This document shows positions 3,596 to 25,988 of a stretch of DNA of 52,724 bases, one piece after another. The notes below the pieces were generated by a model. The model saw only the letters and a list, made by a program, of their open reading frames with translations, ran no database searches and was not told the DNA's origin. How positions within the stretch are numbered: the first letter of the stretch is position 1; each line of letters starts with the position of its first letter. This DNA comes from Candidatus Lutacidiplasma silvani (GTDB lineage Archaea; Thermoplasmatota; Thermoplasmata; Lutacidiplasmatales; UBA184), in assembly GCA_022750295.1 (NCBI GenBank), contig JAKIVZ010000015.1, forward strand, positions 1-52,724, written 5' to 3'. The position numbers were made by a program, and so were the translations under genes.

Positions 3596-4156
3596 ATGGC
3601 CACCCCGACGTCCGGCAAACTCGAGCGCGCGACCCTCGGCGGAGGATGCTTCTGGTGCACGGAGGCCGTGTTCCGAGCGGTCCGGGGGGTCGTGGACGTC
3701 ATCCCGGGGTACGCGGGGGGAGCGACGGAGAACCCGAGCTACGAGGACGTCTGCACCGGGGAGACCGGCCACGCGGAGGTCATTCAGGTTACCTTCGACC
3801 CGGCGGTTCTCCCCTACCGGGACGTGCTCGAGATCTTCTTCGCGACTCACGACCCCACGACGATGAACCGGCAGGGCGGCGATGTGGGGACCCAGTACCG
3901 GTCGGTCATCCTCTACGCCTCCCCGAGCCAGCTCGCCACCGCCCAGGAGGTCATCGCCGAAATGAAGGGCGAGCAAAAGTGGGGCCACCGGGTCGTCACC
4001 GAGCTCGTTCCCCTCGCCAAGTTCTACCCCGCCGAGGAGTACCATCACGACTACTTCCGGAAGAATCCGGATCGGGGGTATTGCCAGGCGGTCATCTCGC
4101 CGAAGATGACGAAGTTCCGCGCAAAGTTCGCCGAACGGCTGAAACCGGCCATGTAG
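3596..4156 (+). CDS. msrA: Peptide methionine sulfoxide reductase MsrA
   Basis: 186 residues, normal for the family. The catalytic motif GGGCFWC is near residue 15-21, with the first Cys as the nucleophile that reduces methionine-S-sulfoxide. Downstream landmarks are GYAGG, TGHAEV, HDPTTMNRQGGDVGTQYRS, AEEYHHDYFRKNP and GYCQ; the last Cys could be the resolving residue. The open frame extends upstream to 3179, but that part translates as shadow-like sequence. The ATG at 3596 fits both the conserved N-terminus and a TATA element 25 bases upstream. It stands alone, divergent from the MASE1 gene. It probably repairs oxidised methionine in the cytosol. Confidence 0.95.
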   Translation: MATPTSGKLERATLGGGCFWCTEAVFRAVRGVVDVIPGYAGGATENPSYEDVCTGETGHAEVIQVTFDPAVLPYRDVLEIFFATHDPTTMNRQGGDVGTQYRSVILYASPSQLATAQEVIAEMKGEQKWGHRVVTELVPLAKFYPAEEYHHDYFRKNPDRGYCQAVISPKMTKFRAKFAERLKPAM

Positions 4157-4177
4157 CGCGATCGACCCCCGGCCCGT

Positions 4178-4531
4178 TCAGGCCCGGGGCAGCAGGAACA
4201 GGATCCCCGCGACCAGCGTGAGGACGAATCCGATCAGCACGAGCACGCCCGAGCCGATCAAGATCAGCCCGATCACGCTCACGACGACGAGGACCACGCC
4301 GCCGGCCGTGGCCCGGTCGGTCGACCGCGAACTGGCGAGCGCGACGAAGAACAGGAGGAGGACGCCGAAGACGAGCTGTTCGAGGGCGGTGGCGGTGCTC
4401 CCCAACCCCTCTCGAAGCGACCGGTCGACGGCCGCGTAGACGATCCCGAAGAAGAAGGTGAAGACGGAACCGAGGAGGACGAGGATCCCTCCGAGGTAGC
4501 CGAACGTTCGCGCGAGCCCGTGCGACCGCAT
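4178..4531 (-). CDS. Small four-helix membrane protein
   Basis: 117 residues, almost entirely hydrophobic, with four predicted membrane helices: about 9-33, 48-65, 75-97 and 98-115. A short charged loop (SRSTDRATAG) separates the second and third. No catalytic motif is visible. It resembles the many short uncharacterised membrane proteins of archaea, such as DUF4064-like ones, but I cannot assign a family. A TTTAAT element on the minus strand (4566-4571) lies about 35 bases upstream of the ATG at 4531. Similar small membrane proteins are encoded at 12712-13038 and 48921-49304. Confidence 0.75.
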   Translation of the reverse strand: MRSHGLARTFGYLGGILVLLGSVFTFFFGIVYAAVDRSLREGLGSTATALEQLVFGVLLLFFVALASSRSTDRATAGGVVLVVVSVIGLILIGSGVLVLIGFVLTLVAGILFLLPRA

Positions 4532-4596
4532 TCAATCTCCCCGGAGTCCGATCAGTCCGACGGGGGATTAAACCCGACGCACCGCGGGTTCGGACC

Positions 4597-6004
4597 TCAC
4601 GGGAGCATTTCCCCGGGGACGGCGGCGGTCGTCGGGGGCGGCTCGGCGGCGATCGTCGGACGGTGCGGCGCCGGTTGGAACCCGAGGGACCGCAATTGCG
4701 GGAACGCGGCCATGAGGACGGCGATGGCGATCGTCCCGACCCCGGCCAGGACGAACGGGGTCTGGGCCGAGCCGAGGAGGAGCGTGAGCGTCCCTCCCAA
4801 ATACTGCCCGATCGGGACCATCGCGTAACTGCCGACCTCGTCGGCCGCGAGGACCCGTCCGAGGAGGTCGTTGGGGACCGTCGCCTGGAGGGTCGCCAGA
4901 AAGACGGTCATGTACATCCCCGGGAACACGCCGAACAGGACCATGTCCGGGAGGCTGATCCAGATCGAGTGGCTGAGCCCCAGAATGAGCACGCTCACCC
5001 CCTCGCCAAGGGTGACGAGGGCGAGGGTACGTCCGGCGACCTTCTCGAACCGGATCCGGCCCATCAGCAGGCTGCCGATCGCGACCCCGATGCTCGACCC
5101 GGTGACCATTCCGCCGTAGAGGAGGGCGTCGGAGACTCCGAGCGTGTGGGTGACGTAGAGCCCGAGCTCGACGAACGCGGCGGTCGTGAGGGAGTTGATC
5201 GCGAGGGCGGTGATCGTGATCTGAAGGAGCGCCTTCCGACGCCACAGGTAGGCGTATCCCCGTCGAGCGTCCTGGACGAACGTCGTGCCGGGGGCCCCGC
5301 TCGGCCTCGGCCGGTCCACGGAAATCCCGCCGAGCGCGACCTGGGCGACGGCGAGGAGTCCGAGCGGGAGTGCCGCGGCGACGAACGCGTGGGTGGCCCC
5401 GAGGTTCAGGATCCCAGTCGCGAGCAGGGAGGCGACGACGCTGATCGCGATCGAGAGCGCGAAGATGAGGCCGTTCGCCCCCGCGAGCTCCGCCGTCGGC
5501 AGAAGATTGGGGAGCGCCGCGTTGTACGCCGGCCGGAACATCGTGGTCGCCGCGCTGACGGCGGCCCACGCGGGCATCATGAGAAGCATCCAGAGCGGGA
5601 GGAAGTACCCCGAGGGACCCGGCAGCGGGATCGCCGTCTCGGGGCGGACGTAGAGGTCGAGGAGGATTCCGAACGTCCCGGCGACGGCGAGCGCGTTCGT
5701 AAGCCGCATGAGGCGCCGGCGTTCCATCCGGTCGGCGAGGGTCCCCGAGACGAGGGCCGCCACGAGGGTCGGAACCGTGGCGGCCAGTCCTTCTAGGGCG
5801 AGGGAGGGCGCGACGAACGAGAGCCGCCCGGCGTATTCGGGAGCGGTCGCGATCGACCAGACGAGGACGAGGACGAGCGCCGCGGGGGCGGCGTACGAGA
5901 ACGAGCCGGCGATGGCGAAGGTCCGGATCCGGGCGTCGCCGAGCAGCGAGCGGTAGGTGGCCAGCCGAGTCCCCCCGATGGCGGCGACTCCGGGAGAGGT
6001 CCAT
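4597..6004 (-). CDS. MFS transporter, start out of frame by one base at a run of six G
   Basis: A major-facilitator transporter with about 12 hydrophobic segments. The loop after the second helix carries GTLADRMERRRLMRL, the family signature between helices 2 and 3. The conserved part can be read in one frame from about 5970 to the TGA at 4597, but that frame has no ATG, GTG or TTG before 5763, which lies inside the second helix. The ATG at 6004 is one frame off: removing one G from the G6 run (5971-5976, C on the plus strand) joins it to LATYRSLLGDARIR and gives 468 residues. This is either a sequencing/assembly error, a phase-variable tract, a non-standard start or a mutation. The substrate is unknown. 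Confidence 0.8.
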
Positions 6005-6136
6005 AAGAGTTCCGAATGGCGAACGGTGCCGAACGGTGGGGCACCCCGCGGGGCCGGCCCTCCGGACGCCGCACCGGTCGGCGAAGCGTCGGTGGGCGCA
6101 GGTTTTGACCGAGGGGCGGCTCGACCCGGTCCCGGG

Positions 6137-7216
6137 ATGCGGATCGTTCACGAAGACCCGAAGCTAGGGGAACGGAAGCTCCTCCTGCAGACGCCGAGCG
6201 ACCTCTGGCGGGCCGCCCGGCTCGTTCGACCGGGCGACCGGGTCGGGGCGTCGACGACCCGCCGGGACCCCGAGGCTCCCGAGGACGCCCCCGCGGCCCA
6301 GCGGGAGCGCCGCCGCGTGTTCCTCGTCGTCGTCGCGGAGCAGGTCGAGTTCCACGGGTTCACGAAGCACATCCGGGTGACCGGGCCGATCGTCGAGGGT
6401 CCGTTCGACATCGGGCGCCACCACACGCTCGACGTCGACGTCGGGGAGACGCTCGCGGTCCGGAAGGAAGCGTGGACCGCCGGGGACCATGCGCTCCTCC
6501 AAGAAGGGCTCGCGGGCGCCGGCGAACCGACGGTGGTCGTGGCGACCGTCGACTGGGGCGAGGCGACGATCGTCCGGCTCCGCGGCCGCTCGGTCGAGAC
6601 GGTCGCCGACGTCCGGCGGACCCTCGCGGGGAAGCGCGAAGGGTCGGGGCAGGCCGAGAAGGACCGCCGCACGTACCTCGAAGAACTCGTGGGGATCCTG
6701 GTCCCCACCCTCGCGGAGGCGACGACGGTGGTCGTCGCGGGACCGGGGTTCCTCAAGGAGCAGCTCGCGGCGGCCGTGATCGAAGCGGCGCCGGCCCAGC
6801 GCGCGAAGCTGCACGTGGTCGCGACGGCGGAGTCCGGGCGGGTCGGTCTCGACGAGCTCCTCCGGTCGGGGAAGGCCGCCGAGGCGCTGCGGGGGTCGGT
6901 GGCCGCCGAGGAGGCGGACCTCGTTGAGCGGCTCGTCACCGCCCTTGGGGGGGCCCGGGCCGCGGTCGGCCCGGTCGAGGTGGCGGAGGCGGTCGACACC
7001 GGCGCGGCCGAGACGCTCCTCGTCTCGGAGTCCCGGCTCGCCGAGCCCGAGACCCAGGCGACGCTCGAGGCATCGAAGGGGGCGCGGGCCCGCGTGTTCA
7101 TCGTCCGCGACGAGGGGGACGCGGGCAAGCGCCTCCGCGGGCTCGGGGGAATCGGGGCGCTCCTCCGGTACGATTGGACGCCGTCCACGGGACGGCGCGC
7201 GGCCGGGGCGCGGTAG
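6137..7216 (+). CDS. pelA: Pelota, ribosome-rescue factor (Dom34 homologue)
   Basis: 359 residues, the usual size of archaeal Pelota. An N-terminal Sm-like domain (about 1-135) is followed by a central domain (about 136-265, with VVVATVDWGEATIVRL and TTVVVAGPGFLK) and an eL30-like C-terminal domain (about 270-350, with GAAETLLVSESRL and the late ALLRYDW). Pelota works with the ABCE1 ATPase to split stalled ribosomes and resembles release factor 1 without the GGQ motif; no GGQ is present here. A charged loop (about 45-63, DPEAPEDAP) looks longer than usual. The ATG at 6137 gives the canonical start; the open frame extends further upstream without conservation. The gene converges on rpo3, with 6 bases between stops. 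Confidence 0.93.
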   Translation: MRIVHEDPKLGERKLLLQTPSDLWRAARLVRPGDRVGASTTRRDPEAPEDAPAAQRERRRVFLVVVAEQVEFHGFTKHIRVTGPIVEGPFDIGRHHTLDVDVGETLAVRKEAWTAGDHALLQEGLAGAGEPTVVVATVDWGEATIVRLRGRSVETVADVRRTLAGKREGSGQAEKDRRTYLEELVGILVPTLAEATTVVVAGPGFLKEQLAAAVIEAAPAQRAKLHVVATAESGRVGLDELLRSGKAAEALRGSVAAEEADLVERLVTALGGARAAVGPVEVAEAVDTGAAETLLVSESRLAEPETQATLEASKGARARVFIVRDEGDAGKRLRGLGGIGALLRYDWTPSTGRRAAGAR

Positions 7217-7222
7217 TCGGAC

Positions 7223-8068
7223 CTACGGGATCGCCTGGACCGCCTCGCGGAGTTCCTCGAACCGCCGCTTGAGGTCCTTCAGGGCGTATCGGAGCGCCTC
7301 GCGCGCGGTGAGGCTGCCGTCGGTCTGGAACTGGAGGAAGAACTTCTCGGTGTCCGGCTCGACGTGGACGCTGCCGTGCTCGCAACTCTTCTCGCACGCC
7401 CAGCAGAGGATGCACTTCGTCTCGTCGGTGACCGTGATCTTGCCGGCGTCGAACTCGAGGATGTTCACCGGGCACGACTGCGCCGCCCGCTTCAGGCACG
7501 CGTCGGTGCAGCCGGACTTCTTCGCGATCTTGATGTGCGGCCGGGGGGACACGCCGACCGCGTGGGCGACCTGCCACTTCGCGTGCTCCCGGGCGGTGCC
7601 GACCGTCGCGGTTGCGTAGGCGAGGAGCGCCTGGCGGGCGCCGAGTCGGACGATCGGGACCTCGGGCTCGAGGATCGCGAGGCTCGCGTCGCCGAGCGGG
7701 GTGACGTCCCGCGCGTAGACGGTGCACGGGCCCTTCTTGTCGATCGAGAACATCACTTGGCAGTGGGCGCAGCCCGCGCCCTCGCAGGTGCACTCGGATC
7801 GTCGGCGGAACTGCCCGAGGTCGGTGGGGACGGGGAGGAGGCCGAGGCGGAGCGCGACGCCCTCGTCGAACATGCTGGTCGACGAATCGTAGTCCTTGCC
7901 GGTCGCCTCGTCCCGGATCGGGCCGAGGTGGAACTCGACGTCCTCGATGGCGAGTTTCGGAACGTCCGTGATCAGCGTCCGCCGGATCGCGTTGATTTTC
8001 GAGGCGCTGGCGCTCGAGAACTCGATGCGGAGTTCGCGGGGCTTTAGATCGGTGATCGCAACGTCCAC
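7223..8068 (-). CDS. rpo3: RNA polymerase subunit Rpo3 (RpoD) with ferredoxin-like domain
   Basis: 281 residues. It starts with the alpha-like dimerisation sequence ELRIEFSSASASKINAIRR and TDVPKLAIEDVEF. Domain 2 has a Cys-rich insertion (CTCEGAGCAHC). The Fe-S domain (about 190-240) follows. It has C-x3-C-x7-CP and then a complete C-x2-C-x2-C-x3-C (KCILCWACEKSC), so one 4Fe-4S site looks intact and the other appears degenerate. The C-terminus completes the dimerisation domain (LTAREALRYALKDLKRRFEEL). It assembles with Rpo10, Rpo11 and Rpo12. It is the last gene of the uS13-uS4-uS11-rpo3 operon, one base after rps11. The usual following genes (eL18, uL13, uS9) are not present. Confidence 0.95.
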   Translation of the reverse strand: MDVAITDLKPRELRIEFSSASASKINAIRRTLITDVPKLAIEDVEFHLGPIRDEATGKDYDSSTSMFDEGVALRLGLLPVPTDLGQFRRRSECTCEGAGCAHCQVMFSIDKKGPCTVYARDVTPLGDASLAILEPEVPIVRLGARQALLAYATATVGTAREHAKWQVAHAVGVSPRPHIKIAKKSGCTDACLKRAAQSCPVNILEFDAGKITVTDETKCILCWACEKSCEHGSVHVEPDTEKFFLQFQTDGSLTAREALRYALKDLKRRFEELREAVQAIP

Positions 8069-22304: not shown

Positions 22305-23717
22305 TTGCCCGCACGGTCAAAGCCGAAGACAAAGAGCCCCGCCCCGACCGCGACGCACCACGCCCGGGGAGGGCGGCGGGTGTTCATGGTCGCCGGCGGC
22401 GTCACGAAGTTCGCGAAGGCCCACCCGGCGATGGACTTCCGGCTGATGGTCCGGAAGGCGTGGGACGCGGCCGTCGCCGATGCGCCGAACCTCACCAAGG
22501 ACCGGATCGACGGGTCTCGGATCTCGTACTTCTCCGACCACTTCACGCGCCAGCTGAAGGCGGCGAGCATGGTCCAGGACTACCTCGGGCTGAACCCGAA
22601 GGGGTCGGTCCGAATCGAGTGGGGCGGCGCCACCGGCGGCGAGTGCTTCCAGGCCGCCTACGAGGCGGTCGCCTCGGGCCGGATGGACGTCTGCCTCGCG
22701 GCCGGGTTCGAGACGATGAGCCGGGTCCAGACGTGGAAGGGGAACGAGTTCATCGCGCTCGCCTCCGACACGAACTACGACTTCCCGCTCGGCGGGTTCT
22801 ACACCGGCTACTACGCGCTGATGGTCCAGCGGCACATCCACGAGTACCTTCGGAAGACCCGGTTCGCCCACGTCAAGGACGAACGGGAGGCCCAGCGGCT
22901 CGCGACGGCCGAGGGAAGCCGGATCATGAGCCTCGTCTCGGTGAAGAACCACGTCAACGCGCTCCACAACCCCTACGCGCAGTATCCGAAGCAGCTGAGC
23001 GTCGACGACGTCCTCCGTTCGGAGATGATCAGCTACCCGCTGACCCGCGAGCAGATCTGCACGATGAGCGACGGGGCCGCCGTCGCGGTCGTCTGCACGG
23101 CCGACCGGGCGAAGGAATTCACCGACAAGCCGATCGAGATCATCGGCGTTGGAACGGGGACCGACACGATGCGGCTCGCCGACCGGCCGTTCGGGAAGGT
23201 CCCGCTCATGGCCCACGAGAGCGCCAAGGACTACGCGAACCTCGACTACCCCGGGGTCCACTCGTTCCGGGCCGGCCGCTCCGCGGGGCTCGAGGCGTAC
23301 AAGATGGCGGGGATCACCGCCCCGAAGAAGGAGCTCGACTTCATCGAGCTTCACGACGCCTACGCGTCGAGCGAGATCCAGACGTACGAGGACCTCGGTC
23401 TGTGCCGGTACGGCGAGGGGTACTCCTTCACCGAATCGGGCGCCCCGTTCCTCCCGAACGTGAAGTACCCGTTCCCCACGCCGAAGGCGGGCGAGATCCC
23501 GGTGAACCCGTCGGGGGGGCTCATCGCGTGCGGCCACCCGGTCGGGGCGACCGGCCTCATGCAGGCGGTGTTCGCCTACTGGCAGCTCGAGAGGTCGATC
23601 GGCAAGCACTTCGGGGATACGACGCTCCAGATCCCGAACGCGAAACGCGGGGCGATCCACAGCCACGCGGGGACGGGGTCGGCCGTGACCGTCTCGATCC
23701 TCGAGCGGGGGTACTGA
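22305..23717 (+). CDS. SCP2-type thiolase homologue lacking the nucleophilic cysteine
   Basis: 470 residues from a TTG at 22305; a GTG at 22380 is an alternative closer to the conserved start. The thiolase fold is shown by VAGGVTKFAK, ASGRMDVCLAAGFETMSR, ELHDAYASSEIQTYEDLG and NPSGGLIACGHPVGATGLMQ, which has the catalytic His. At the position of the NACAS nucleophile the sequence is WGGAT, so the Cys is replaced by Gly108; a Cys is present six residues later (GGECF). The final loop is SHAGTGSAV and not a Cys-containing one. The DUF35 gene overlaps by one base. Cys-less thiolase homologues paired with DUF35 proteins include the steroid side-chain aldolase Ltp2, so ordinary acetoacetyl-CoA thiolase activity is doubtful. 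Confidence 0.88.
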   Translation: MPARSKPKTKSPAPTATHHARGGRRVFMVAGGVTKFAKAHPAMDFRLMVRKAWDAAVADAPNLTKDRIDGSRISYFSDHFTRQLKAASMVQDYLGLNPKGSVRIEWGGATGGECFQAAYEAVASGRMDVCLAAGFETMSRVQTWKGNEFIALASDTNYDFPLGGFYTGYYALMVQRHIHEYLRKTRFAHVKDEREAQRLATAEGSRIMSLVSVKNHVNALHNPYAQYPKQLSVDDVLRSEMISYPLTREQICTMSDGAAVAVVCTADRAKEFTDKPIEIIGVGTGTDTMRLADRPFGKVPLMAHESAKDYANLDYPGVHSFRAGRSAGLEAYKMAGITAPKKELDFIELHDAYASSEIQTYEDLGLCRYGEGYSFTESGAPFLPNVKYPFPTPKAGEIPVNPSGGLIACGHPVGATGLMQAVFAYWQLERSIGKHFGDTTLQIPNAKRGAIHSHAGTGSAVTVSILERGY

Positions 23718-24241
23718 TGGCGCCTCCGAAGCCCAAGAAGTACACGAAGTTCCGCGACGTCCAGGCGGAGATCCTGAAGTCCGGCTCCGCGATCTTCCGG
23801 GACGCGAACGGCGTCGAGAGCCTCATCGTCGACAGCCCGTACTCGATCCGGTACATCCACAGCTACGCCGAGGATTCCCCGTTCTTCCTCGGTCTCGCCG
23901 GAGGGAAGCTGATGGGGTCGAAATGCACCGGCTGCGGGTTCGTCTACGCGACCCCGCGCGGCCACTGCATGGAGTGCGGCGAGCCGACCGAATGGCTCGA
24001 GCTCCCGAACTCCGGCCGGGTCCACGCCTGGACGACCTGCCAGTTCGGCAGCGAGGCGTTCCTGAAGGACACGCCGTACAACCTCTGCCTCGTCGAGTTC
24101 GACGGCGCCGGCAGCCTCCTGCTCGCCCGGCTGAAGGACTGCACGCAGGACCAGATCTGGATCGGGATGCCGGTCGTCGCGAAGTTCTCCGCGACCCCGA
24201 AGTACTCGATCACCGACGTCTGGTTCGTCCCGAAGAAGTAG
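23717..24241 (+). CDS. DUF35 zinc-ribbon/OB-fold partner of the thiolase homologue
   Basis: 174 residues. A helical N-terminal part is followed by a rubredoxin-like zinc ribbon, CTGCGFVYATPRGHCMEC (about 70-87), and an OB-fold (about 95-170, ending in YSITDVWFVPKK). DUF35 proteins bind CoA substrates and bridge thiolase with HMG-CoA synthase in the archaeal mevalonate pathway, or partner Cys-less thiolase-fold aldolases. The ATG at 23717 shares its first base with the thiolase TGA, so the two are translationally coupled in a fixed ratio. No HMG-CoA synthase gene lies in the window. Confidence 0.92.
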   Translation: MAPPKPKKYTKFRDVQAEILKSGSAIFRDANGVESLIVDSPYSIRYIHSYAEDSPFFLGLAGGKLMGSKCTGCGFVYATPRGHCMECGEPTEWLELPNSGRVHAWTTCQFGSEAFLKDTPYNLCLVEFDGAGSLLLARLKDCTQDQIWIGMPVVAKFSATPKYSITDVWFVPKK

Positions 24242-24327: not shown

Positions 24328-24966
24328 GTGCCGAGCACCCGGAAGGAACCCGAGCCCGCCCTCGCCGCGCCCGGGCTGATTGGTCCGTTCTCGATCGAGA
24401 AGCCCCCCGGGATCGGCCCCCGGTCGGCCCGACGGAGCCGCGCCCGCTCCTACCGTCACGTCCATCTCGAGGTCGACCTCGCGCCCCAGCCGCGGGACCC
24501 GAAGGGGGTCCCCGCGCTCGTGCGGCTCTCCGGCCTGCTGAAGGAGCGGAGGATCGTCGAGCAGGGGACGCTCATCGTCCTCGCCGCGGCGACGCTGCAC
24601 GCCCTCTCCGCCCGGCGGTTCCGACGGGTCGACCACTGGGAGGTCTCCCCCGGCGGGTGGCTCCCTCCGCCCCGGCCGTCGGAGTCGCCGGACGGCTCCG
24701 AGCCGGTCGGCGACCTCATCGAAGCGCTCGAGGGCGGCGGCTGGGAGCCGGTCGCGATCGCGCGGTCGTTCTCCGTCCGGGTCTCCGACCTCTCGGGGGG
24801 GCGGGTCGACGTCACGATCCGCCGGATCCACCGGGAGCGGCGCCACGCCCTCTCCCTCGACCTCTGGGGGTCGTGGACGAAGGCGACGGTCAAGGACCTG
24901 CAGGGATCGCTCGCCGAGCGGCTCCCCGTCGATCAGGTCACGATGACGAAGTTCCAGTACGAGTAG
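24328..24966 (+). CDS. Hypothetical protein
   Basis: 212 residues, no family recognised. The N-terminal 45 residues are Pro/Arg/Ser-rich. From about 45 the sequence looks folded: HVHLEVDL, GVPALVRLSGLLKERRIVEQGT, VGDLIEALEGGGWEPVAIARSF, VRVSDLSGGRVDVTIRRI and HALSLDLWGSWTKATVKDLQG. It alternates predicted strands and helices, and the end KFQYE is short. The start is a GTG at 24328; later starts are possible. It follows the DUF35 gene after 86 bases on the same strand, and its last 29 bases overlap the opposing GNAT gene. Confidence 0.6.
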   Translation: MPSTRKEPEPALAAPGLIGPFSIEKPPGIGPRSARRSRARSYRHVHLEVDLAPQPRDPKGVPALVRLSGLLKERRIVEQGTLIVLAAATLHALSARRFRRVDHWEVSPGGWLPPPRPSESPDGSEPVGDLIEALEGGGWEPVAIARSFSVRVSDLSGGRVDVTIRRIHRERRHALSLDLWGSWTKATVKDLQGSLAERLPVDQVTMTKFQYE

Positions 24967-25795
24967 GGCCGGGACCGCCCGAACGGTTCTCATCTCGCGA
25001 CGGCAGCGGGTCGCCCGGCCCCCGGACCCATCCGACGACGCCCACGAGCGGCTGGAATCCGACCCGCTCGAGGATCGGCCGGCTCGTGGCCAACGCGTCG
25101 ACGGTGACGTACCGGTACCCCCGAGCGCGGGCGAGCGCGACCCGGGCGGCGACGAGCGCCCGGTAGATCCCGCGCCCCCGGAACTCGGGGGCGGTGCCCC
25201 CGCCCCAGAGGCTTGCGAACGCCCGACCGACGGGAAGTTCGAGACGACCGGCCGAGACCGTCTCGTTGCCCACCCGGGCCGCGAACACCTCGAAGGTGGG
25301 GGTCCCGAGACGGAGGAGGTACTCGTCGAGGTCCCATCCCTGGCCGGACGGGAACGCCTTCCGGCTCACGTCGCACGCCCGCTCCAATCCGGCCGGATCG
25401 GACACCCGTTCCACCACGAGGTCCCGAGCCGGCGGCCCGAACTCCGGCGACGCGCGGAGGTCGAGCACCATCAGGGTCTCGGGAGGGTCGGGGGCGAAGC
25501 CGTTCTCCTCGAGGAGGAGAGCGAGGGTCCGGGGAGAATCGTGCGCGAACAGTTTCCACTCGAGTTCGATCCCCTCCGCGTGGGCGCGCTCCACCTCCGC
25601 CCGCACGGCGGCCGGGGCCTCGGTCTCCGAAAGCCCGGAGTAGGCGATCCAGGCTCGGGTGCCTACGACGCGAACGATCGAACCGACCCGCTCGACCCGT
25701 TCGCCGGGATCCACCGAGGGGTCCCTTCGCATCGTCGCGTCAAACTCCGCGAGGATCTCCTCGCGGCGGCCGCTCCCGGGGCCGGAGGAACTCAT
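24938..25795 (-). CDS. GNAT-family N-acetyltransferase
   Basis: 285 residues. The N-terminal half (about 1-115) looks like a degenerate GNAT-like lobe (LEWKLFAHDSPRTLALLLEENGF). The C-terminal half carries the acetyl-CoA motif: LWGGGTAPEFRGRGIYRALVAARVALARARG (motif A, with the R-G-x-G-I turn), then YRYVTVDALATSRPILERVGF (motif B). So it is a two-lobed GNAT of unknown substrate. The frame is open upstream through the tRNA-Phe gene to 25945, so the ATG at 25795 is preferred as it follows that RNA gene. Its 3' end overlaps the opposing hypothetical gene by 29 bases. Confidence 0.85.
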   Translation of the reverse strand: MSSSGPGSGRREEILAEFDATMRRDPSVDPGERVERVGSIVRVVGTRAWIAYSGLSETEAPAAVRAEVERAHAEGIELEWKLFAHDSPRTLALLLEENGFAPDPPETLMVLDLRASPEFGPPARDLVVERVSDPAGLERACDVSRKAFPSGQGWDLDEYLLRLGTPTFEVFAARVGNETVSAGRLELPVGRAFASLWGGGTAPEFRGRGIYRALVAARVALARARGYRYVTVDALATSRPILERVGFQPLVGVVGWVRGPGDPLPSRDENRSGGPGPTRTGTSSS

Positions 25796-25887
25796 CCCGC
25801 GGGTCGAGCCGTCCGAACCGGCGTTGGCGGGTGGGGCGACCCCTTGGGGGTTGAAGGGGGCCGAATCGTCGCTGGGCGGGCGAAGGA

Positions 25888-25961
25888 TGCCGCGGGCCGG
25901 GCTTGAACCGGCGGCTTCAAGATCTTCAGTCTTGCACTCTCCCAAACTGAGTTACCGCGGC
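25888..25961 (-). tRNA. tRNA-Phe (GAA)
   Basis: 74 bases on the minus strand. Acceptor arms GCCGCGG and CCGCGGC pair over 7 bases, followed by discriminator A. The anticodon stem CAAGA/TCTTG holds the loop CTGAAGA, giving anticodon GAA. The T arm contains GGTTCAAGCC. The CCA end is not encoded: the next bases on the minus strand are TCC. No intron is visible. A CATATA element lies about 30 bases upstream. Confidence 0.96.
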
Positions 25962-25988
25962 AGCCGGGCGCGCCGACTCCCCGGCGAG

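Follow-up and report, generated by a model that had tools for sequence, protein, structure and literature searches.

A cysteine-less archaeal thiolase-fold protein with a DUF35 partner: a candidate carbon-carbon lyase of coenzyme A esters

Introduction

The closest functional parallels to the gene pair described here come from the steroid aldolases. In TcLtp2, Tyr294 of the motif YDHF serves as the base and Tyr344 as the acid, and in CtSal the catalytic residues are Tyr302 and Cys304 of YDCY; CtSal also carries a glycine where SCP2-thiolases have their nucleophilic cysteine, so that it is incapable of thiolysis (PMC12329534, of which a part is drawn on here). We analyzed a 52,724-nucleotide stretch of DNA, referred to as the window, from the soil archaeon Candidatus Lutacidiplasma silvani (Thermoplasmatota; assembly GCA_022750295.1, JAKIVZ010000015.1). 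The window spans all of C23, one of the 29 contigs of a 2.10 Mb genome for which a completeness of 90.9% is given. It encodes a thiolase-fold protein without the nucleophilic cysteine, followed by a DUF35 protein. Judged from sequence, there is an even chance that the two form a heteromeric lyase that cleaves carbon-carbon bonds in coenzyme A (CoA) esters, working like Ltp2/ChsH2-DUF35 and Sal/Shy-DUF35. A search of open-access PMC found no study of an archaeal cysteine-less thiolase-DUF35 lyase.

Results

Active site of the thiolase-like protein

The gene pair and its motifs are located in the window as follows.

22305..23717, plus strand: cysteine-less thiolase-fold gene, 470 amino acids, TTG start (Pfam, NCBIfam, alignments, AlphaFold2 model)
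22617..22646, plus strand: nucleophile loop E105-W-G107-G108-A-T110-G-G-E-C114, with Gly108 in place of the acyl-accepting cysteine (alignments)
23352..23363, plus strand: H350-D351-A352-Y353, counterpart of the HDCF loop of SCP2-type thiolases (alignments)
23532..23540, plus strand: G410-H411-P412, catalytic-histidine loop (alignments)
23664..23672, plus strand: H454-A-G456, with His454 at the second catalytic cysteine (CxG) of classical thiolases (alignments, tree rows)
23717..24241, plus strand: DUF35 partner gene, 174 amino acids, ATG start, zinc ribbon and oligonucleotide/oligosaccharide-binding (OB) fold (Pfam, homology)
23924..23977, plus strand: zinc-ribbon cysteines C70, C73, C84 and C87 of the DUF35 protein (open reading frame translation)

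A preliminary description of this locus had proposed that the acyl-accepting cysteine is replaced by Gly108 and that the catalytic-histidine motif (GHPVGATG) and the HDAY loop are kept. Both proposals agree with HMMER alignments to the thiolases 6esq, 7yvy and 6hsj, in which Gly108 occupies the column of the nucleophilic cysteine, HDAY stands opposite HDCF or HDAF, and GHPVG stands opposite the GHxxG loop. The window loop reads R-I-E-W-G-G108-A-T-G-G-E-C114-F, and its counterpart in the archaeal thiolase 6esq reads R-V-E-A-A-C-A-S-G; over residues 100-115 it is therefore Gly108, and not Cys114, that falls at the nucleophile position, and Thr110 matches the serine of CAS in ordinary thiolases.

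Conservation was assessed in 147 sequences, after removal of 30 rows that duplicated others over a stretch of 200 residues; 114 of the sequences are at least 50% identical to the window protein. In this set of 114, Gly107, Gly108, Thr110, Lys214, Asn215 and Asp351 occur without exception, His411 is present in 113 and His454 in 112, the remainder being gaps. Position 350 is occupied by His in 107 and by Tyr in 7, and position 352 by Ala in 111 and by Ser in 3. In a subgroup of four loci (L165-L167 and L197), HDAY is replaced by YDAY or YDSY, nearer to the YDHF and YDCY of the steroid aldolases. Among 31 sequences of 33-50% identity, which include other families, residue 108 is Gly in 23, Asp in 4, Cys in 3 and Pro in 1.

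Because Gly108 recurs in all 114 non-identical relatives, the alignments indicate that it is real and no sequencing accident. Of the hallmarks of a thiolase, the protein retains the fold, as predicted, and the histidine of GHP (His411); it lacks the nucleophilic cysteine of the CxS loop (Gly108) and also the second cysteine, be it that of CxG (His454) or that of HDCF in the SCP2 and archaeal type (Ala352). On these motifs the protein is not an ordinary thiolase, and the near-invariance of Asp351, His411 and His454 is the mark of a constrained active site.

The domain assignments agree with this architecture. The 470-residue protein matches Thiolase_N and Thiolase_C/Thiolase_C_1 of Pfam and begins with a basic, poorly conserved extension of about 22 residues, and its partner matches zf-ChsH2 and OB_ChsH2_C, i.e., DUF35. 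The stop codon of the first gene and the start codon of the second share one base (TGATG, at 23717), an overlap that the preliminary description had reported correctly. By far the top NCBIfam match of the thiolase-like protein is PRK06365 (NF004982), with 617.5 bits, under the model cut-off of 695; this model, named "thiolase domain-containing protein", gives no function, and those of its above-cut-off members that were examined (L038-L063) are likewise cysteine-less. In the DUF35 zinc ribbon, the first cysteine pair is spaced C-x2-C in the window and C-x4-C in other members of the genus, for example L082, L090, L100 and L117.

Predicted fold, phylogeny and origin

The AlphaFold2 model, built from a 33-sequence alignment, has a mean predicted local distance difference test score of 88.6 and a predicted template-modelling score of 0.90. 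It places residue 108 between strand 100-104 and helix 110-123, the expected position of the nucleophile loop. A Foldseek search against the PDB returned 6et9/6esq on top (TMt 0.93, 30-31% identity), followed by an SCP2-thiolase, a Pyrococcus thiolase and ST0096, with Ltp2 (6ok1) at rank 32 (TMt 0.85, 19% identity) and Sal (9myr) at rank 34 (TMt 0.81, 21% identity).

In a tree of 57 thiolase-fold rows, which covers neither Ltp2 nor Sal, the window-type cysteine-less rows form one clade of 35 with support 100/99, and 33 of the 35 carry His at the CxG site (support 98/95). On this tree the window family is a well-supported archaeal clade. Across the 57 rows, Cys108 is paired with Cys352 in 12 of 13 cases, and all 44 rows with another residue at 108 lack Cys352, an association whose small P value is overstated by the kinship of the rows. 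Since archaeal acetoacetyl-CoA thiolase is a closer match in fold than Ltp2, the aldolase-like features are more likely convergent with those of Ltp2 and Sal than inherited from them. The plasmid-borne "lipid-transfer proteins" that were considered as sources of Ltp2 proved to be SCP2-thiolases with the cysteine. Separately, a Halococcus dombrowskii plasmid (L216) carries, at 4019-5188 on the plus strand, a thiolase-family gene with Gly in place of Cys (ENGGATGA), which adjoins genes for an OB-fold (DUF35-like) protein and for an enoyl-CoA hydratase.

Gene neighborhood across the clade

DUF35 homologues were counted by tblastn with the window DUF35 protein (E 1e-8), and the count was also made with ten queries, of which nine had been chosen by position and matched themselves; a fixed C-x2-C motif misses the C-x4-C members. 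Of 121 loci, 111 have a homologue downstream in the same orientation, and in 109 of the 110 clade loci one stands behind the thiolase gene, the exception (L158) being at a contig end.

Other neighbors were counted up to 700 bases from the thiolase gene in the 110 clade loci, some of which come from the same or near-identical genomes. An acyl-CoA dehydrogenase gene lies within this distance in 15 loci from several lineages (seven of the dehydrogenases were typed), and in L165-L167 and L197 the genes for acyl-CoA dehydrogenase, cysteine-less thiolase and DUF35 abut or overlap. A dehydrogenase and/or a ligase is found at 19 of the 35 loci of 60-79% identity to the window, a dehydrogenase at four of the five loci of 50-60%, and a dehydrogenase, ligase or transferase at nine of the 18 loci below 50%. 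In ten loci (L147-L156) from genomes that include some labelled Thaumarchaeota, Nitrososphaerales or Nitrososphaerota, a ligase gene invariably lies 3-63 bases upstream. The L147 ligase, the only one of these that was typed and to which the ten are 61-100% identical, is an acetoacetate-CoA ligase (926.6 bits with a cut-off of 639, and 800.8 with a cut-off of 520.9). The genes ahead of the pair in L138 were considered as a possible carboxylase and identified instead as aldehyde dehydrogenase and peptide-transporter genes.

In the window itself, the neighbors are a gene of the 4HBT thioesterase fold, a helix-turn-helix gene, a carbamoyltransferase gene on the opposite strand and topoisomerase I. 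The thioesterase and transcarbamylase genes named in the preliminary description are thus present. A functional link to them was rejected, as was one to the helix-turn-helix gene, since only the window's own group has these genes so close to the pair. In the more distant L161-L164, a carbamoyltransferase gene of this family (typed in L163 only) lies 6-7.6 kb downstream, which we take for loose old synteny. Further along the window, a tRNA-Phe gene (25885-25962, minus strand) overlaps the start of a predicted open reading frame without a Pfam match (24941-25945, minus strand), the true start of which is likely downstream.

Ligase and CoA-transferase in families f34 and f17

Membership of the clade in family f34 was assigned by score and gave 28 listed genomes with a clade member; the member in G173 is fragmentary and lies where its contig ends. 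A ligase was defined as a TIGR01217-type match at E 1e-120 and a CoA-transferase as a PF01144 match at E 1e-15. Twelve of the 28 carriers have the ligase and 16 the transferase, and none has both or neither. The ligase gene lies 124-281 bases upstream in 10 of the 12 and on other contigs in two; the transferase gene lies upstream by 201-481 bases in nine of the 16, by 2.2-3.2 kb in four and by 9.8 kb in one, and on another contig in two. Among the f34 genomes without the cysteine-less gene (at least 16), the ligase occurs in three and the transferase in none (Fisher P 1e-8; 1e-5 when restricted to a listed completeness of at least 80%; both values are weakened by genome relatedness and incompleteness). 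The five f34 sequences examined at residue 108 (L176, L179, L181-L183) all have Gly. In f17, with gene distance left aside, ten of 28 genomes carry a ligase and 12 a CoA-transferase, never together.

Leucine-catabolism context

The genome that holds L184 (G138, family f50) combines, at this locus, genes for a carboxyltransferase, a partial biotin carboxylase, a ligase, an acyl-CoA dehydrogenase, a CoA-transferase, the cysteine-less protein and DUF35. The beta carboxyltransferase matches methylcrotonyl-CoA carboxylase (8j4z, 4e-238; 3u9r, 8.5e-237); its top match, 9tps (6.6e-247), is named propionyl-CoA carboxylase, and the best ordinary propionyl enzyme is 1vrg (1.4e-81). The L184 ligase is nearest to MbcS, under the cut-off of that model (513 vs 850). 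In L142, genes for 2-oxoacid dehydrogenase E1 alpha, E1 beta, E2 and E3 lie ahead of the pair, and genes for acyl-CoA dehydrogenase and methylmalonyl-CoA mutase lie behind it. By similarity, L143 has the same E1, E2, ligase, dehydrogenase and mutase genes, and L159 has E1 alpha, E1 beta and E2 as in L142. L142-L144 and L146 are labelled Nanoarchaeota, Parvarchaeota or Micrarchaeota and belong to bins of 0.7-1.2 Mb that may be mis-binned. The evidence from context comes mostly from relatives; those with acetoacetate-type ligase or 2-oxoacid dehydrogenase neighbors are 64-72% identical to the window protein.

The classical 3-hydroxy-3-methylglutaryl-CoA (HMG-CoA) lyase (NF004283) was found at E 1e-40 in none of 292 Thermoplasmatota genomes, 159 of them at least 90% complete, in a search in which 5 of 14 controls gave matches; the window genome, too, has no match at this threshold. 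None of 20 further genomes had a match above the cut-off, and eight had weak matches. Nor does NF004283 appear in the list of the 25 families that best match the window protein. The classical enzyme is a TIM barrel, and therefore it could share only function with the window protein.

Thiolases and acyl-CoA enzymes of the window genome

PF02803 matches seven places in the window genome. A classical two-cysteine thiolase is encoded at C22:13.1-14.3 kb, and the copies on C3, C7 and C17 retain the cysteine. A further copy (L076, G000:C8:48000-60000; 5655-7742, minus strand) has Ser at the nucleophile position (EAASASG), with no PF01796 match on contig C8. DUF35 (PF01796) is found at four places, on C22, C7, C3 and in the window. 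The genome also has acyl-CoA dehydrogenases at six places and enoyl-CoA hydratases at five, and the description of the order reports beta-oxidation as well as genes for valine, leucine and isoleucine degradation (in the portion of PMC9287336 used here).

A separate HMG-CoA synthase-thiolase-DUF35 operon is located on C22 (L074, G000:C22:38000-50000), where the thiolase gene (5031-6197, minus strand) adjoins the HMG-CoA synthase gene (6201-7259, minus strand). The thiolases of such operons form a clade of their own (7 rows, 100/99), in which six of seven Thermoplasmatota rows (L074, L187, L189 and L192-L194) have lost the cysteine to Gly or Asp, and the places of GHP and HDCF vary. The copy of the window genome reads GGGASGA, HDGY and GRPFG, the GHP histidine being gone as well. 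This cysteine loss apparently occurred separately from that of the window clade, and the acetoacetyl-CoA for mevalonate may be supplied by another thiolase. Acetoacetyl-CoA synthesis need not, it would seem, depend on the window gene.

Discussion

Proposed function and mechanism

Of the interpretation offered in the preliminary description, the cysteine-less thiolase-fold/DUF35 pair with an Ltp2-like retro-aldol reaction stands as the best reading; its suggestions of a Cys114 nucleophile, a mevalonate role and a link to the neighboring genes do not. Taken by itself, a retro-aldol or aldol lyase activity is about equally probable and improbable on present evidence, and HMG-CoA lyase activity in at least some lineages is possible but doubtful. 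The family is most likely, judging from its motifs and neighbors, a 3-hydroxyacyl-CoA lyase of branched-chain catabolism with a putative substrate. We tentatively suggest, as a rather doubtful extension, that it represents an archaeal class of 3-hydroxy-3-methylacyl-CoA lyases that arose from acetoacetyl-CoA thiolase, converged with the steroid aldolases and replaces the missing HMG-CoA lyase in leucine catabolism; lineages without methylcrotonyl-CoA carboxylase, that of the window included, would cleave 3-hydroxyisovaleryl-CoA directly to acetone and acetyl-CoA.

In the proposed mechanism, an acyl-CoA dehydrogenase and a hydratase would supply a 3-hydroxyacyl-CoA, most likely methyl-branched at C3, which would sit in the room freed by Gly108, in a substrate and CoA tunnel shaped by DUF35. 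Residue 350, a His that one subgroup replaces by Tyr, would act together with Asp351 to abstract the proton of the 3-hydroxyl, cleavage of the C2-C3 bond would yield the acetyl-CoA enolate and a ketone, and the enolate would be protonated by His411 or His454. The acid would differ from that of Sal because Ala352 cannot serve, which leaves His411 and His454 as the candidates. The likeliest physiological substrate would be HMG-CoA, split to acetoacetate and acetyl-CoA, where a lineage has methylcrotonyl-CoA carboxylase, or 3-hydroxyisovaleryl-CoA, split to acetone and acetyl-CoA, where it has none, as in that of the window. In the window genome, HMG-CoA would have no visible source in leucine, while 3-hydroxyisovaleryl-CoA would have one.

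If correct, this would mean that aldolase chemistry arose on the thiolase fold a second time, independently, in archaea and outside steroid breakdown, and would provide leucine breakdown with a testable lyase candidate in a phylum where the classical family was found in none of the genomes searched. The archaeal label "thiolase domain-containing protein" includes proteins that are unable to be ordinary thiolases.

Evidence weighing against a lyase of leucine catabolism

Several observations weigh against this proposal. At the active site, the acid of Sal, Cys304, corresponds to Ala352, and Ltp2 was compared by fold and published motifs, with the counterpart of its second tyrosine (Tyr344) not placed. 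The window pair stands alone, with no acyl-CoA dehydrogenase adjoining, and among the 52 clade loci of at least 79% identity, six have a ligase and 46, the window included, have no ligase, transferase or dehydrogenase within 700 bases. The window genome has a single carboxyltransferase, of the propionyl type (1vrg 8.8e-202; methylcrotonyl type 1.7e-84); searches for an acetoacetate-CoA ligase (E 1e-120) and for a CoA-transferase (E 1e-15) found neither. All 28 genomes of f17 carry the cysteine-less gene, and in none of them does PF01039 find a carboxyltransferase at E 1e-30; therefore HMG-CoA from leucine would be unavailable there.

The ligases also vary in kind between lineages. The six loci of the window's genus with a ligase have it downstream, and the four that were typed are all plain acetate-CoA ligases; for the L142 ligase the acetoacetate model fits best yet lies far under its cut-off (326 vs 639). 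Two f34 ligases were typed, with scores of 688 and 686 in the acetate model (cut-off 657) and of 426 and 415 in the acetoacetate model (cut-off 520.9), and their identification as acetoacetate-CoA ligases was rejected in favor of the better-fitting acetate model. Likewise, the L184 transferase, which shares 77% identity with its counterparts in L179 and L181 of f34, is nearest to glutaconate CoA-transferase (1poi, 6e-48; SCOT, 5e-9), and its identification as SCOT was rejected. The f34 association itself includes only five of 28 sequences examined at residue 108, and most f34 genomes that lack the gene have a lower completeness. Finally, Pfam cannot tell whether a dehydrogenase complex such as that of L142 is of the branched-chain or the pyruvate type.

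Alternative explanations

The protein could instead be an inert scaffold that has lost catalysis and merely holds DUF35 and a partner enzyme or a CoA tunnel. The phylum does show decay of this kind, in the operon thiolases with their lost cysteine and, in the window genome, lost GHP histidine. Unlike those copies, however, the window family keeps Asp351, His411 and His454 almost throughout, and its own genus shows no constant adjoining partner enzyme besides DUF35, which makes a scaffold unlikely. A Claisen-type enzyme that works without a covalent intermediate (by decarboxylation, direct acyl transfer or condensation, for example with malonyl-CoA or acetoacetyl-CoA), or a thiolase in which a different residue, for instance Thr110, is the nucleophile, would fit the invariance of Thr110, the acetyl- or acetoacetyl-CoA-forming ligases that often adjoin, and the nearest fold, that of an acetoacetyl-CoA thiolase. 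Thr110 is nevertheless no new residue, given its match to the serine of CAS, Cys114 is unconserved and the second cysteine sites are gone too. Moreover, TbSLP, which is said to be without the SCP2-thiolase cysteines, decarboxylates malonyl-CoA at only 0.005 per second, and CtSal does not do so at all (as given in part of PMC12329534). We regard this as a minor possibility.

A hydrolytic retro-Claisen reaction, in which water attacks a 3-oxoacyl-CoA and the adjoining ligase or CoA-transferase re-activates the freed acid, is suggested by the strict alternation of these two enzymes in f34 (28/28, never both), which points to a free acid in need of activation. The acid may equally be the substrate of the pathway, or acetoacetate from HMG-CoA, and no characterised thiolase-fold enzyme with DUF35 is known to us to perform hydrolytic retro-Claisen cleavage. 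This explanation is quite improbable. Least credible, and very improbable, is an ordinary biosynthetic thiolase of the mevalonate pathway with Cys114 as its replacement nucleophile. Cys114 is near in sequence and the closest PDB relatives are thiolases, but the alignment puts the nucleophile at Gly108, and Cys114 is no substitute because it is unconserved, being present in 69 of the 114 relatives and absent from 45. The mevalonate role fails because HMG-CoA synthase, thiolase and DUF35 are encoded in an operon of their own elsewhere in the genome, which has a classical two-cysteine thiolase besides.

Comparison with known systems

The nearest solved structure, by both fold and sequence, is the Methanothermococcus complex of acetoacetyl-CoA thiolase, DUF35 and HMG-CoA synthase (6esq/6et9; phmmer 3.5e-42). 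It too has a DUF35 partner, and 6esq_E is the top match of the window DUF35 protein. It differs in retaining the nucleophilic cysteine, where the window protein has Gly108, along with Ala352 and His454, and the window pair is not beside HMG-CoA synthase, which is on contig C22. The Sulfolobus protein ST0096 (4yzo) is likewise an archaeal thiolase-like protein that aligns without a cysteine at the nucleophile site, but it is more distant (25-27% identity), shorter (373 amino acids) and has another motif.

Ltp2 differs from the window protein in its motif, YDHF rather than HDAY, and in its substrates, which are steroids; an acyl-CoA dehydrogenase gene adjoins the pair in some relatives of the window. 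Steroid operons also carry an acyl-CoA dehydrogenase gene beside the aldolase pair. The tyrosine base in the Y-D-x-F/Y motif of Ltp2 and Sal is His350 in the window and Tyr in seven of the 114 relatives, and Sal, at 21% identity, has Tyr302 and Cys304 where the window protein has His350 and Ala352. With Ltp2-ChsH2(DUF35) (6ok1) the window pair shares the thiolase fold, the absence of the thiolase cysteines and the DUF35 partner, and with Sal-Shy(DUF35) (9myr) it shares the glycine at the nucleophile position and, again, the DUF35 partner (both as described in part of PMC12329534).

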